DNA of 44,552 nt from Omnitrophica WOR_2 bacterium RIFCSPHIGHO2_02_FULL_45_21 (lineage in GTDB: Bacteria > Omnitrophota > Gorgyraeia > Gygaellales > UBA12090): assembly GCA_001805575.1 (NCBI GenBank), contig MHGN01000071.1, forward strand, positions 1 to 44,552, given 5' to 3'. The notes beneath the pieces were generated by a model. It did not search any database and was not told the origin of the DNA. It saw nothing but the letters and a program-made list of their open reading frames with translations. Below are positions 3,998 through 37,871 of this stretch, piece after piece. Numbering within the stretch: the first letter of the stretch is position 1; the number at the start of each line of letters is the position of its first letter. The translations under genes were made by a program, and so were the position numbers.

Positions 3998-5519
3998 GCC
4001 AGAGGGCAGTGGTGCGGCTTCCAATAGCCGCAGCCACCAGCCAGAGGGCAGTGGTGCGGCTTCCAATAGCCGCAGCCATAGCCAGTGCTTTGGCAAACTT
4101 TCAGAAAATGTGGATATCTCAAGCCTTGCCTGTGATTCCCGAAGCGTAACAAAAGACTCTCTTTTCATCGCTATCGATGGCACAAAAGTAAAAGGCAGTG
4201 ATTTCATCGCTGAGGCGATAAGAAATGGCGCTTCGTGCGTGGTTGCTGCTCATCGCAGGACTGCGCTGTTTGAGAGGAGAGTCCCTGTTATTTATTTTCC
4301 CGATACCCGCTATGCCTTGGCGGTGATGGCAGATGAATTTTTTGGCCATCCCTCAAGGAAGCTCAAAGTGATTGGCGTTACCGGCACAAACGGAAAAACC
4401 AGCATAACCTATCTTATCAGGAGCATACTCCAGGAGGCCAATTTTTCCTGCGGTATAATCGGAACCATAAACTATTCTTTTAAAGAGAAAATCATTCCCG
4501 CCCAGAATACCACGCCCGGCCCCTTAGAGCTGCAAATGTTCTTAAAGCAAATGGTTAGAGCCGGATGCGCTTACTGCATAATGGAGGTTTCTTCGCACAG
4601 CTTAGATCAGCAAAGGACTGCGGGTATAGATTTCAAAGCCGCTCTATTTACTAATCTGACTCATGACCATCTGGATTACCATCTCAATTTAGAAAACTAT
4701 TTTTCTGCCAAAGCCAAGCTTTTCCGGGGGCTTAATAAAGACGCCTTTAGCATAATCAATGCTGATAGCCCTTATGCCGGGAGGCTTGCGACTATAGGCC
4801 TGGGGAAATTAATTACATATGGGATAGATTCAGAGTGCGATATCAGAGCGGAAAATTTAGCCTTAGATCTGGCAGGAAGCGAATTTATCCTGCATACGAA
4901 AAAGCGCAAGCCCTCCTCGGGGGGTAAGACGAAAATCAAAACCCGCCTTATCGGCAGGCACAATATCTCTAATCTATTAGCTGCTATTGCCTTTGCTTTG
5001 AGTCAAAAAATAGAATTAGCGCAGATTGTCCGCGCCGTAGAAAATTTTAACGGCGTCAAGGGAAGGTTGGAAAGGGTCAGAGCGCAAGAAAGAAATATTT
5101 TCATTGATTATGCCCATACCCCTGACGCGCTGGCGAATGTCCTGGGAACCCTCAAGGCACTCTCAAAGGGTAAGCTGACGGTTGTCTTTGGAGCTGGAGG
5201 AGAGCGCGATGCTCTTAAGAGGCCGCTAATGGGAAAGCTCGCCGAGAAATATGCGGACAAGATTATTATCACTTCTGACAATCCACGCAGTGAAGAGCCG
5301 CAAAAAATTGCCGATGATATTACCTTGAAGATGCGCGGGGATAATTACAAGGTCATTTTAGACCGCAAAGAGGCAATTGCCTGCGCCTTATCCGCATCTT
5401 ATGCCGGCGACACAGTGCTTATTGCCGGAAAAGGCCATGAGAATTACCAGATCCTCAAGGACAGGAAGATTGAATTTGACGATATGGCAGTGGTAAAACA
5501 ACTCTTGCAACAGACATAG
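3963..5519 (+). CDS. murE: UDP-MurNAc-tripeptide synthetase MurE, with repeat insert in N-terminus
   Basis: GTNGKTS Mur ligase P-loop, LTHDHLDYH, GRHNISN, DNPRSEEP. Confidence 0.93.
   Translation: MRLARLLRRLDRPEGSGAASNSRSHQPEGSGAASNSRSHSQCFGKLSENVDISSLACDSRSVTKDSLFIAIDGTKVKGSDFIAEAIRNGASCVVAAHRRTALFERRVPVIYFPDTRYALAVMADEFFGHPSRKLKVIGVTGTNGKTSITYLIRSILQEANFSCGIIGTINYSFKEKIIPAQNTTPGPLELQMFLKQMVRAGCAYCIMEVSSHSLDQQRTAGIDFKAALFTNLTHDHLDYHLNLENYFSAKAKLFRGLNKDAFSIINADSPYAGRLATIGLGKLITYGIDSECDIRAENLALDLAGSEFILHTKKRKPSSGGKTKIKTRLIGRHNISNLLAAIAFALSQKIELAQIVRAVENFNGVKGRLERVRAQERNIFIDYAHTPDALANVLGTLKALSKGKLTVVFGAGGERDALKRPLMGKLAEKYADKIIITSDNPRSEEPQKIADDITLKMRGDNYKVILDRKEAIACALSASYAGDTVLIAGKGHENYQILKDRKIEFDDMAVVKQLLQQT
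3999..4078 (+). repeat. Two tandem 38-bp palindromic units (period 42 bp) in frame in murE
   Basis: ccagagggcagtggtgcggcttccaatagccgcagcca at 3999 and 4041; each folds gtgg-tgcggct/agccgca-ccac and encodes PEGSGAASNSRSH. Confidence 0.9.
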
Positions 5520-8035: not shown

Positions 8036-8114
8036 CGAAAACTCAAATTTCGTTTTACACTTTACGTTTACTTGACTATTGCTTCGTGAGATAAATTTTT
8101 CGTTACAGTGCACT

Positions 8115-9416
8115 ATGAATGCCATGATTGGAGATTACAAAGGTAAGAAAGTAACCGTGGTGGGCTTAGCCAGGAGCGGATATGCGGCCGCGCGCCTATT
8201 AAAGGATATCGGCTCAGAGGTATATGTTACGGATAGCGCCGATAATGACCGGGTGAGAACCCTGGCTAAAGATTTGAAAAGGCAGGGTATCTACGTTGAA
8301 ACCGGCAGGCATTCCCTTGATTTCATCAGGAATAAGGACCTGGTGGTGAGTTCTCCCGGAGTAAGCAATAAATCGCAAGCGTTTCTCTGGGCTGATCAAT
8401 TGAAGATTCCGGTGATCAGCGAGATAGAGCTATCCTGGTCGCTTTGTCCGGCAACCGTTATTGCTATTAGCGGAACTAACGGTAAGACAACGGTAACTAC
8501 CCTCCTCGGCAAAGTTTTGGAAGCAGCCGACAGGCGGGTATGGACCTTGGGCAACATAGGAAAACCCTTTGCGCAAGAAGTAATGAATATGAATAGCGAT
8601 GATTTTGTTTCCCTGGAAGTCAGCTCTTTTCAATTAGAGAGAATTACTGCCTTTAAACCGAAGGTCTCGGCTATATTAAACTTTACCCGCGACCATTTGG
8701 ATAGATACGGGGATATGTCCGAATATCTGGCGGCAAAAAAACGTATCTTTAGAAATCAGTCTCGCGACGATTACCTTGTTCTAAATTATGACCAGCCGAT
8801 CTTAAGGAACCTCGCCAAAGAAAGCAAAGCCAAAGTAATTTTCTTTAGCGCAAGACTCCTGCCTGTCCGGCAGGCAGGCAAGACGCAAGACGCAAGACGC
8901 TGTCTAAATTCCAATCATTACGCAGTTATGGCTGTGGCTAAAATTTTTGCTGTCCCCGAAGCCCGCTGTATGGAGGCCTTCCGTAATTTTAAAGGAGTAG
9001 AACACCGCCTGGAACAGGTACGCACTATCAATGGCATAGAATTCATCAATGACTCAAAGGCAACTAATGTTGATTCTACTGTATGGGCTTTGCATACTAT
9101 GCTTAAGCCAACTATCCTTATCGCCGGCGGCAGGGATAAAAATAGCGACTATCGCCTGATTTCGGATTTAATCAAACAAAAAGTTAAACTCATTATCTTG
9201 ATCGGCGAGGCAAGAGAAAAAATCCGCACTGCCTTTAAGGGACTGCTGTCTATTGAGGAGGCCTCATCCCTTGAAGAAGCAACCCAGAAGAGTTTTCAAC
9301 GCGCGCAGGAAGGCGACTGCATACTGCTTTCTCCCATGTGCGCCAGCTTTGATATGTTTTCAGATTATGAACACCGGGGAAGGGTGTTTAAAGAGATAGT
9401 CGGTAAGTTGGAATAA
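8115..9416 (+). CDS. murD: UDP-MurNAc-L-alanine--D-glutamate ligase (start uncertain: 8079, 8115 or 8124)
   Basis: GTNGKTTVTTL, FTRDHLDRY, INDSKATNVDST; central domain interrupted by repeats. Confidence 0.9.
   Translation: MNAMIGDYKGKKVTVVGLARSGYAAARLLKDIGSEVYVTDSADNDRVRTLAKDLKRQGIYVETGRHSLDFIRNKDLVVSSPGVSNKSQAFLWADQLKIPVISEIELSWSLCPATVIAISGTNGKTTVTTLLGKVLEAADRRVWTLGNIGKPFAQEVMNMNSDDFVSLEVSSFQLERITAFKPKVSAILNFTRDHLDRYGDMSEYLAAKKRIFRNQSRDDYLVLNYDQPILRNLAKESKAKVIFFSARLLPVRQAGKTQDARRCLNSNHYAVMAVAKIFAVPEARCMEAFRNFKGVEHRLEQVRTINGIEFINDSKATNVDSTVWALHTMLKPTILIAGGRDKNSDYRLISDLIKQKVKLIILIGEAREKIRTAFKGLLSIEEASSLEEATQKSFQRAQEGDCILLSPMCASFDMFSDYEHRGRVFKEIVGKLE
8850..8900 (+). repeat. Heptamer array GCAAGAC (4 copies) split by a 21-bp palindrome, inside murD
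   Basis: gcaagac-tcctgcctgtccggcaggcag-gcaagac-gcaagac-gcaagac-gc; palindrome cctgcctg/caggcagg. Confidence 0.9.
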
Positions 9417-10513: not shown

Positions 10514-11601
10514 ACCGCCTAAAATTACTCATTGCCTCCGGAGCAAGCGCCGGGCACTTGTATCCGGCGCTTGCCTTTGCTGAAAAGCTGCGCGAGAAAG
10601 AAGCAAACCTGGATATTGCCTTTGTTTCTTCGCGGCGCGGCGGCATAGAAGAGAGCATTAGCGGGCGCGGATTCAGGCTATTTTTTATCTCCGTATTGCC
10701 ATTTAGTTTCAAATCATTTAAGAAGTTCTTTCCTGCCTTTTTTAGTTTTATCAGGTCCTTTTTAGAGTCTTTCTTAATCATTGAAAAATTCAGGCCCGAT
10801 GTTGTTGTAGGCTTTGGCTCTTATGTGAGTTTTCCCGTTCTCTTAGAGGCCGCCTTATTTAAGAAAGCAACCGTTATTCATGAGCAGAATGTTTCTTTAG
10901 GCCTTGCCAATAAGGGTTTAAGCTTCTTCGTTGATAAGGTAGCAGTGGGTTTTAAGCAAACAGAGAATTTCTATGCCAAGGCAACATTCACAGGCAATCC
11001 GTTAGGGAAATCTTTGCGTAAAGCAGGCAAAGATGAAGCCAGGCGTTTTTTCAATTTAGAAGATAAGTTTACCATTTTAACGGTTGGCGGAAGCCAGGGC
11101 GCGCATAAGATAAATAGCGAGTTTAAAAACTCTGTCTGTCTGATAGAGAAAAAAGAGGATTTTCAGTTTATTCACCTAACCGGGAAAAGCGATTATAATG
11201 ACTTGAAAAAATATTACTCTTGTATTACAATGAGACATCGTGTTTTTGATTTTTTAGAGCCGATGCATCTTGCCTATAGCCTGGCTGATTTGGTCGTAAG
11301 CCGCGCCGGAGCGATAACCATAGCGGAGTTGGTTTATTTTCAAAAGGCAGCGCTCTTGATTCCCTATCCGTATGCCGGAGGCCATCAATTAGAAAATGCT
11401 TATGCTTTAGAAAAAGAAGCGGCAGCAATAGTGCTGAGAGAAGAAGATTTGGGGCGCCAGAGGCTCTCTGAGACTATAGCGAGGCTTATCCATTCTCCTC
11501 TTGAACGTCAGGCGCTTGAGCATAATATTCAGAAATTTGCCGTCCCTGATGCAGCCGGCAAGCTGGCAGAATTGGCTTTGTCTTGCTATAGGAAAGCATA
11601 A
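10510..11601 (+). CDS. murG: UDP-GlcNAc:lipid I GlcNAc transferase MurG
   Basis: GHLYPALAFAE, VVGFGSYVSFP, TVGGSQGA, SRAGAITIAEL. Confidence 0.92.
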   Translation: MNRLKLLIASGASAGHLYPALAFAEKLREKEANLDIAFVSSRRGGIEESISGRGFRLFFISVLPFSFKSFKKFFPAFFSFIRSFLESFLIIEKFRPDVVVGFGSYVSFPVLLEAALFKKATVIHEQNVSLGLANKGLSFFVDKVAVGFKQTENFYAKATFTGNPLGKSLRKAGKDEARRFFNLEDKFTILTVGGSQGAHKINSEFKNSVCLIEKKEDFQFIHLTGKSDYNDLKKYYSCITMRHRVFDFLEPMHLAYSLADLVVSRAGAITIAELVYFQKAALLIPYPYAGGHQLENAYALEKEAAAIVLREEDLGRQRLSETIARLIHSPLERQALEHNIQKFAVPDAAGKLAELALSCYRKA

Positions 11602-11622
11602 AATACTTTCCTCTAGCACTGC

Positions 11623-11795
11623 GAAAATCGCCTTCCCGCCCTTTATACTTTCGCGGCCAAAAACCGCCCCGCAGATGGCTGGGCGGATGGGTTTGGCCGC
11701 TCAAGTATTTCGCCAAGCAAGGAACCCCAGGCTTTAGCCTGGGAGGGGCTCCATTTTAAATAACGAGGCGGGAGTTATCGTCGGAGGCGATTTTC
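11623..11795. repeat. Nested inverted-repeat element (MITE-like or structured RNA) between murG and the peptidase gene
   Basis: Outer gaaaatcgcct/aggcgattttc and tcccgcc/ggcggga; inner atactt-tc-gcggccaaa/tttggccgc-tc-aagtat with ccgccc/gggcgg; inner cccaggc-ttta-gcctggg. Confidence 0.65.
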
Positions 11796-11812
11796 TTGTT
11801 AGCATAACAATA

Positions 11813-21803: not shown

Positions 21804-22502
21804 ATGATTAAGCAGAACTTATCCGCTATCAAGGCAAAGATTGCATCCGTTTGCGCTAGGACAGGGAGAAATCCGCAGGAAATTACGCTTGTCGCAGTAA
21901 GTAAAGGCAGGTCAATAGACAGCTTGAGAGAAGTAATTGAGGCGGGGATAACCGATATCGGCGAAAATAAGGTCCAAGAAGCTCTTCATAAATATAACAT
22001 GCTGCATGCGACCTGTAACCTGCAGCGGGTGAGATGGCATATGCTTGGCCACCTGCAGACGAATAAGGCAAAAGAAGCGGTAAAACTCTTTGATTTGATT
22101 CAATCGGTAGACAGCCTGCGCCTGGCAGCGGAAATTAACAGACAATCCGGGAAGCTGAAGAAGATTCAGGATATATTAGTTGAAGTAAACCTTTCCGCTG
22201 AGTCATCCAAATTTGGCATAAAACCTGAACAGGCAGAAGAGGTTATAAGAGAAATGTCAGAATTTAAAAATTTAAATATAAAGGGGCTGATGGGCATTGC
22301 TCCCATTGTTGATCTTCCCAAAAAAACCAGGCCCTATTTTAGAATGTTAAAAAAATTAAGAGGCGTAATTCACCAGCCGCCAGCCGCCAGCCGCCAGCCG
22401 CTAATTTTATCAATGGGTATGTCTAGCGATTTTGAGATAGCCATAGAGGAGGGCGCAGATATGCTCAGGTTAGGCAGGGCTATCTTTGGAGCCTTAAATT
22501 AA
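21804..22502 (+). CDS. YggS/PROSC family PLP homeostasis protein
   Basis: LVAVSKGRSIDSLREVIEAGITDIGENKVQEA, WHMLGHLQTNKAK, LSMGMSSDFEIAIEEGADMLRLGRAIFG. Confidence 0.93.
   Translation: MIKQNLSAIKAKIASVCARTGRNPQEITLVAVSKGRSIDSLREVIEAGITDIGENKVQEALHKYNMLHATCNLQRVRWHMLGHLQTNKAKEAVKLFDLIQSVDSLRLAAEINRQSGKLKKIQDILVEVNLSAESSKFGIKPEQAEEVIREMSEFKNLNIKGLMGIAPIVDLPKKTRPYFRMLKKLRGVIHQPPAASRQPLILSMGMSSDFEIAIEEGADMLRLGRAIFGALN
22374..22401 (+). repeat. Perfect heptamer array CAGCCGC x4 inside the yggS-like gene
   Basis: cagccgc at 22374, 22381, 22388 and 22395; encodes QPPAASRQP. Confidence 0.95.
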
Positions 22503-36154: not shown

Positions 36155-37871
36155 AGAGTTATTACAAGATATACTCCTGCAGGTGAGAAAACCGGCGCGC
36201 TATCTCGGCAATGAGTGGAATGTGATCAGGAAGGATTTTCTCAAAGCAAAGGTAAAATTTGCCATTTGTTTTCCTGACCTCTATGAGGTAGGAATGAGTA
36301 ATCTGGGCCTGCGGATTATTTACGGCCTGCTCAATGCTCAAGAATCCGTTTCCTGCGAAAGGGTTTTTTTGCCTGACCTGGATATGCTTGAAATCTTGAG
36401 AGCAAGAAAGATTCCCCTATTTTCTTTGGAATCCAGGATGCCGTTGGTTGAATTTGACTTTATTGGTTTTACCTTGAGCTATGAATTGGATTATACAAAT
36501 ATACTGGCAATGCTGGATTTATCCGGCATTCCTCTCTTAGCCAGCCAGCGGAATTTAGATTTTCCTTTGGTAATTGCCGGTGGCAGCTGTGTGAGCAATC
36601 CCGAGCCATTAGCTGATTTTATAGATTTATTCCTGATTGGCGAGGCAGAGGAAGCGCTCCCGGAAATTATAGAAAGATATAAAGAAATACAAACCACGAA
36701 CCACAAACCACAAACCACAAAAGAAGAAGTTCTCAGGGAATTAGTTAAAATAGAAGGAGTGTATGTTCCGTCACTATATGAGGTTGAATATGATAGCTGC
36801 GCAGCGGTTAAGAAATTCTCGCCTAAGTATCCCGGTGTCCCCCCTCAAGTAAGAAAGCGCATTGTCAAGAATCTGGAGCAGGCCTATTATCCTACTAATT
36901 GGCTTGTTCCTTATGTCCAGATAGTTCATGACCGGGCCTCTATTGAGTTGATGCGGGGTTGTCCTCACCGTTGTAATTTCTGCCAGGCCAGAACCATCTA
37001 TCATAATCTCAGGCTCCGCTCAGCGCAAAAGGTTTTAGAGTTGACTAAGGAGGTAGAGCGGCTTTCAGGTTATGAGGAATTCTCTTTTCTTAGCCTATCC
37101 ACAAGCGACTATCCGTTTTTAAATGAAGTTATCAGTTCGCTGAAGGAAAAATTCCAGGAACAGGCTATCGCGATATCGCTTCCTTCGCTAAGGCCAAAGG
37201 CATATCTGGGCGATCTGGCTGCGGCCTTAGCCAAGGTGCGCAAGACCACCCTTACCTTTGCTCCCGAGGCAGGCAGTGTTAAACTGCGCAGACAGATTAA
37301 TAAGGACTTTAATATGGAGGAATTCTACGCAGCAGTTTTTGCCAGCTATAAGGCTGGCTGGAGGGCAATAAAGCTATATTTCATCATCGGCCTGCCGAAT
37401 GAGGATTATGAAGATTTGGATGGAATATTGGAGATTGCCCAGGAGGTCTGCCGTTTAAGAAAAGAAGCTGTTGGCAGGCCTGCTGAAGTTCGCTTGAGCA
37501 TCTGCCTTTTCATACCCAAGCCGCATACGCCCTTTGAAAGAGAAGCAATGGAATCCCAGAGCAGGCTGCGTAATAAAATTATCTATTTAAGAAGAAAGAT
37601 GGAATATTTACCCCGGGCTATTTCGCTTAATTTCCATAATCTAGAAAGCAGCCTCCTTGAGGCGGTATTGTCACGAGGGGATCGCAGCTTAGGAAGTGTT
37701 CTGCTAGAGGCATATAAGAGAGGGTGTCTACTGGATGCCTGGCCGGAATATTTCAAATTTGACCTTTGGCGGGCTGCTTTTAATCAATGTAATAGGTCGC
37801 CCGATTCTTATCTAAAGGCAAAATCAAGCGATGAAATTCTTCCCTGGCAGCATATAGATTTAAGCGCTTAA
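36147..37871 (+). CDS. B12-binding/radical SAM protein (TIGR03960-like)
   Basis: CFPDLYEVGMSNLGLRIIYGLLN; MRGCPHRCNFCQAR (CxxxCxxC). Confidence 0.9.
   Translation: MTQELLQDILLQVRKPARYLGNEWNVIRKDFLKAKVKFAICFPDLYEVGMSNLGLRIIYGLLNAQESVSCERVFLPDLDMLEILRARKIPLFSLESRMPLVEFDFIGFTLSYELDYTNILAMLDLSGIPLLASQRNLDFPLVIAGGSCVSNPEPLADFIDLFLIGEAEEALPEIIERYKEIQTTNHKPQTTKEEVLRELVKIEGVYVPSLYEVEYDSCAAVKKFSPKYPGVPPQVRKRIVKNLEQAYYPTNWLVPYVQIVHDRASIELMRGCPHRCNFCQARTIYHNLRLRSAQKVLELTKEVERLSGYEEFSFLSLSTSDYPFLNEVISSLKEKFQEQAIAISLPSLRPKAYLGDLAAALAKVRKTTLTFAPEAGSVKLRRQINKDFNMEEFYAAVFASYKAGWRAIKLYFIIGLPNEDYEDLDGILEIAQEVCRLRKEAVGRPAEVRLSICLFIPKPHTPFEREAMESQSRLRNKIIYLRRKMEYLPRAISLNFHNLESSLLEAVLSRGDRSLGSVLLEAYKRGCLLDAWPEYFKFDLWRAAFNQCNRSPDSYLKAKSSDEILPWQHIDLSA
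36692..36719 (+). repeat. Heptamer array AACCACA x4 inside the radical SAM gene
   Basis: aaccacg-aaccaca-aaccaca-aaccaca; encodes QTTNHKPQTTK. Confidence 0.92.

Follow-up and report, generated by a model that had tools for sequence, protein, structure and literature searches.

Repeats within an intact murD

The window (the whole stretch of 44,552 nucleotides analysed here, from Omnitrophica WOR_2 bacterium RIFCSPHIGHO2_02_FULL_45_21) holds murD in a normal dcw cluster, and inside that gene a 21-bp palindrome is set among copies of a heptamer. The features discussed below are:

3998..4085, - strand: second dispersed hairpin element (42-bp), two tandem copies in the N-terminal part of murE (hairpin z -2.9)
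8115..9416, + strand: murD, intact UDP-MurNAc-L-Ala:D-Glu ligase gene (TIGR01087, AlphaFold2, Foldseek)
8850..8856, + strand: heptamer GCAAGAC, 5' of the palindrome (register CAAGACT directly before the palindrome)
8850..8877, + strand: 28-nt insertion relative to the sister genome G001, equal to the 21-bp palindrome plus one heptamer (pairwise alignment)
8858..8878, + strand: 21-bp dispersed palindrome CCTGCCTGTCCGGCAGGCAGG, encoding MurD residues 248-255
8878..8900, + strand: heptamer array GCAAGAC x3.3 (Tandem Repeats Finder score 46, 100% match)
8913..8915, + strand: codon of Asn267, the last Asn of HNxxN (kept in 110/110 MurDs compared)
22373..22401, + strand: heptamer array CCAGCCG x4.1 in a YggS-like gene, of the same kind but lacking a palindrome
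36689..36721, + strand: heptamer array ACAAACC/AACCACA in an ORF resembling a radical-SAM protein

At 8850-8900 the order is GCAAGAC, a single T, CCTGCCTGTCCGGCAGGCAGG and GCAAGAC x3, with the final G of CCTGCCTGTCCGGCAGGCAGG doubling as the first base of the next heptamer unit; the palindrome has 8-bp arms and a 5-nt centre. A sequence-only reading of this DNA had described the same succession of heptamer, 21-bp palindrome and three further heptamers within murD, the peptide ARLLPVRQAGKTQDARRCL, the MurD reading NSNHYAVMAVAK, the HN motifs of MurC and MurE and the VNVYN of MurF, and in all of these it was correct. Despite the repeats, murD is one open frame (an in-frame ATG at 8124 is a possible alternative start), the product of which scored 406.6 bits against TIGR01087 over residues 12-430 (curated cut-off 211.95). 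The AlphaFold2 model of the product (pLDDT 89.2) had E. coli MurD (4uag) among its best fold matches in Foldseek (TM 0.81), so that structural prediction returned an intact MurD fold around the repeat-encoded loop. Residues 250-259 formed the only internal stretch with pLDDT <50, and the loop that contains them was the only disordered internal loop in a model that was otherwise confident. Because low internal pLDDT was confined to these residues, the repeat-encoded residues are predicted to be a tolerated loop insertion. The enzyme most likely still works. A search of this genome for a second murD found none, leaving the copy in the window as the only one.

The nearest named record, Omnitrophica WOR_2 RIFCSPLOWO2_12_FULL_46_30, has a MurD 87% identical to this one and matches our sister genome G001. 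At the same place, this independent assembly carries three heptamers (GCGCGAC, GCGCGAC, GCAAGAC); a nearby 4-nt loss relative to the sister offsets the 28-nt gain and restores the frame. As judged from the alignment, a loop that was ancestrally short gained 8 residues relative to the sister through the insertion, and no domain segment was removed. The suggestion of a damaged or mis-assembled locus was not upheld, given the single open frame, the family score, the intact modelled fold and the sister's heptamers at the same place. More generally, a mis-assembly or sequencing artefact might be suspected in a draft genome of 75 contigs in which pheS is frameshifted at another copy of the palindrome, but heptamers recur here in the sister assembly with the frame kept, and matching elements were found in 59/117 assemblies (reversed control, 0), which makes such an artefact highly improbable.

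The MurD loop across Omnitrophota

To place the loop in context, 110 Omnitrophota-type MurD sequences were aligned and the loop was measured between LNYDxP and FKGVEHR. This stretch spans 76 residues here, 68 in the sister and 62-72 in other family members, where no clear heptamers were seen at this murD place. Across the order the repeat-free loops of relatives are mostly 62-69 residues long, many of them exactly 62. At the aligned position, the HN of HNxxN is absent in 88/110 MurDs and kept in 21/110, while the final Asn (Asn267 here) is kept in every sequence. The adenine-binding motif HNxxN is incomplete in this MurD; it is usual in the family, though not demanded by the family model. Compared with bacterial MurD in general, the protein shares the fold, the family score and the catalytic motifs including the final Asn, and differs in its short loop without HN, as do most of the Omnitrophota compared. 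Most of those MurDs (L014-L061 and others) lack HN and have ∼30 loop residues fewer than the longest forms, and a short central-domain loop that keeps the last Asn alone is widespread across the order. Since most of the 110 MurDs are short, repeat-free and without HN, this comparison indicates that most of the lineage has long had the short loop. On a MurD tree built without the loop columns, however, short and long loop forms required at least 4 changes, and the history of the short loop is therefore not one clean event.

These comparisons bear directly on the proposal, made from the sequence alone, that repeats removed, or took the place of, the portion of the MurD central domain ending in HNxxN. 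The protein does lack HN and is short here relative to E. coli, with the repeats at exactly that place, but most Omnitrophota-type loops, likewise without HN, are as short or shorter without any repeats, relatives with shorter repeat-free loops occur across the order, and the sister shows this architecture too, with a smaller number of repeats. We consider replacement extremely improbable: relatives with a short loop and no repeats were looked for and are common. What stands of the original proposal is that repeats altered an essential enzyme gene; neither a replaced part of the central domain nor a damaged or mis-assembled locus was supported. The loss of HN is a matter separate from the repeats. 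It is unusual, because adenine binding in the related Mpl is attributed to the His and the final Asn of HNxxN (PMC3060825). We found no open paper reporting what the loss of Asn268 does to MurD. In other Omnitrophota (L097 and L084), the MurD loop holds unrelated extra sequence (e.g., a tandem NDTMVDNPHNGTMVDN stretch), marking the loop as a recurrent insertion site.

A dispersed palindrome nested in heptamer arrays

Heptamer arrays were not limited to murD. Exact period-7 arrays numbered 6 in the window versus 0.4 in shuffles, the harmonic 14 being the only other enriched period, and 175 kb sampled from the same genome contained 28 period-7 arrays, other periods averaging 1.6, a density that may overstate the whole genome since the sampled stretches were picked for palindrome copies. 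A genus-mate showed a weaker excess (5 versus 0.5), and in four other relatives it was lower again. Two further stretches of the window are absent from the sister: an 84-nt insertion (12 x 7) between mraY and murD at 8040-8123, with degenerate heptamers (e.g., TTTCGTT, TTACACT, TTACGTT), and ∼215 nt at 11584-11798, separating murG from the gene that follows and holding several GC-rich inverted repeats.

The palindrome is dispersed as well. At ≤3 mismatches, 0.01 occurrences of its pattern are expected per shuffled window; the genome has 8 copies at ≤2 mismatches, and the pattern CCTGCCTNNCCGGCAGGCAGG (≤1 mismatch) was present in 59 of 117 Omnitrophota genomes, with up to 51 copies, whereas its reversed control gave 0 in all 117. 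Copies were counted in G059 (51 copies; a 98% complete genome) and in G007 (9 copies). Related forms with other cores exist, and several are perfect palindromes. As RNA, the GT form is predicted to fold into a hairpin of -15 kcal/mol (z -4.0), the TG form being weaker (-10.4, z -1.6). The common forms contain no stop in any frame, which does not point to a special stop-free design, as 60% of shuffles are likewise stop-free in six frames.

The flanks of 68 distinct palindrome copies from six genomes were analysed, with the proviso that copies sharing a gene or a genome are only partly independent. With the flanks joined, identity at a lag of 7 across the junction was 53%, and 30/68 copies reached ≥71%; lags 3-6 and 8-13 gave 20-31% identity and 0-4 copies, and harmonics appeared at 14 and 21. 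The control set, 35 copies of this 21-mer that occur by chance in viral contigs, gave 29% identity, with 1/35 copies reaching the threshold (Fisher P = 3.7e-6). A phage origin of the palindrome was considered and rejected: the viral contigs carry chance-like copies alone, without heptamer flanks. In or beside heptamer arrays were 43/68 copies (26 inside, 11 with an array on one side and 6 in which only the 7-mers flanking the palindrome match), 14/68 lay in the 42-bp element and 11/68 in neither. The base directly 3' of the palindrome was C in 58/68. Where palindromes were nested in arrays, the units varied and the position was usually exact between units, and precise insertion of the palindrome between heptamer units is supported by these comparisons. 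This genome contains 45 matches to the 42-bp element, including the two in the murE of the window; the core of the element is GGCTATNGGAAGCCNNACCANTGCC, it is often tandem, the two sides of its stem covary (GGC..GCC / GCC..GGC), and the 21-bp palindrome nests inside it.

Short, palindromic and dispersed, the repeat resembles REP/REPIN elements moved by a RAYT (Y1 transposase), and its own genome has one PF01797 match. However, neither G059 nor G007 has such a match despite their copies, and most copies are intragenic whereas REPs are extragenic. Because the richest genome has no detectable RAYT, we regard mobilization of this kind as very unlikely.

Insertion within conserved genes

Most copies lie in genes: 55/68 were within an ORF of ≥150 aa, and 38/68 had ≥40 residues on both sides. 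An NCBIfam match spans the insertion site in LysA, HisF, ValS (twice), Tgt, Lnt (several), PrmC, AroA, TsaD, FabD, DapF, fumarate hydratase and others, and further hosts are MnmE, PyrK and PurL; across these hosts, the palindrome is read in several frames. One copy in this genome, at a site in pheS that combines palindrome and heptamer (L005, G000:C30, ∼15315), is out of frame, with the frame resuming downstream in another phase. A genuine frameshift, recoding or an error in length would each account for this; either some copies are not harmless or some array lengths were mis-called in assembly.

Most surprisingly, one and the same loop bears different heptamers in different species. In PyrK, this genome has CGCTATC plus the palindrome, G006 has CGCTATC x4 without the palindrome and exactly 21 nt less, G003 has GACCGTT and G002 has GGCCGGG. 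The HisF loop carries CACAGTC plus the palindrome in G007, CTATCGA in G005 and G003, GGCCGCA in this genome, AACCAGT in the sister and none in G002; that of Lnt carries CGCTATC with three palindromes in G001, CCTCGTC in G005 and CAAGCTC in G059. Such differences at one loop would reflect either repeated new arrays in tolerant loops or the rewriting of existing arrays. Filled and empty sites were thus available for PyrK (21 nt, between genera) and murD (28 nt, within the genus), neither being a strain-level pair, and together with the distribution of copies they suggest that the palindrome moves.

How it would insert bears on the origin of the heptamers, which could largely be 7-bp target duplications made by the palindrome itself. 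The murD gain of 28 nt equals 21+7, copies are spaced by exactly 28 nt in G001 and G059, and six copies have matching 7-mers on both sides with no wider array. Against this, many arrays extend several units past the palindrome or occur without one, and the PyrK sites differ by exactly 21 nt with equal unit number, a difference that weakens the idea that generic 7-bp target duplication accounts for everything. This alternative seems unlikely to us, although the murD change, being 28 nt, leaves room for a 7-bp duplication or for later slippage. Palindromes recurring every 28 nt exactly, with a single heptamer separating neighbours, were observed at G001:C27:1273-1349 (L189, lnt) and G059:C12:4486-4534 (L219, tsaD).

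It is very likely, in our assessment, that two repeat layers meet in a tolerant loop of murD, a slipping heptamer array and a hairpin inserted between its units, so that a short loop was lengthened and no segment was removed. Slippage is the usual explanation for changes in the length of tandem repeats, and the heptamer array would probably gain and lose units by this route. The 21-bp hairpin element forms the second layer by inserting between heptamer units, as indicated by the register of its flanks and by one clean empty-site comparison. An element landing in a gene would add ∼7 residues, because 21 nt make seven codons and the common forms are stop-free in any frame. Selection would keep only those total array lengths that preserve the frame in flexible loops, to judge from the MurD model and the homologous loops. 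We also entertain, more tentatively and as a possibility that we would not expect to hold, an active two-layer system in which heptamer arrays seed or re-seed tolerant loops of essential genes, the hairpin targets unit junctions, the loops are fast-evolving and species-specific, and the machinery is neither a RAYT nor a known transposase.

Relation to known repeats and significance

To our knowledge, tiny repeats nested in heptamers are known only from cyanobacteria, where they lie mostly outside genes. The small dispersed repeats (SDRs) of Nostoc are reportedly dispersed elements of 21-27 nt that form hairpins and are nested in tandem heptamers and other small elements. Our element agrees with the SDRs of Nostoc and its relatives in size, dispersed copies, hairpin and nesting in heptamers and a small element, a likeness of architecture. 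Precise insertion inside another small repeat is likewise documented for SDR5 within HIP1 (PMC4390886). The element here differs in belonging to another phylum, in lying mostly in coding sequence, in-frame in essential genes, and in targeting the junction of heptamers of many sequences. Heptameric tandem repeats have been described as heptanucleotide repeats of cyanobacteria and G-rich heptamers of Xanthomonas and Nostoc (PMC4692102) and as the TAACTGA repeats of Beggiatoaceae (PMC4679880). These share the unit of 7 and the genome-wide dispersal, but they are mainly intergenic and dominated by one or a few units, whereas the heptamers here comprise many units that vary between species at the same loop, with many arrays intragenic. 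Rickettsia palindromic elements (RPE) of ∼150 bp occur in-frame in protein genes (PMC10969869); the element here is likewise palindromic and in-frame within unrelated protein genes, but it is 21 bp long, nested in heptamer arrays, and has neither the ∼150-bp length nor the conserved peptide of an RPE. REP/REPIN elements, finally, are linked to RAYTs and extragenic (PMC3116915), in contrast to the copies in G059, which has no detectable RAYT, and to the intragenic majority reported above.

The same nested architecture has now been found in a phylum unrelated to the cyanobacteria, in-frame in many conserved genes and with both filled and empty sites. Omnitrophota therefore offer a comparative system in which to ask how elements of non-coding length move and why the unit is seven. 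For the proteins of this phylum, low-complexity loops of the PAGRQAG kind are to be read as repeat insertions and not as domains.
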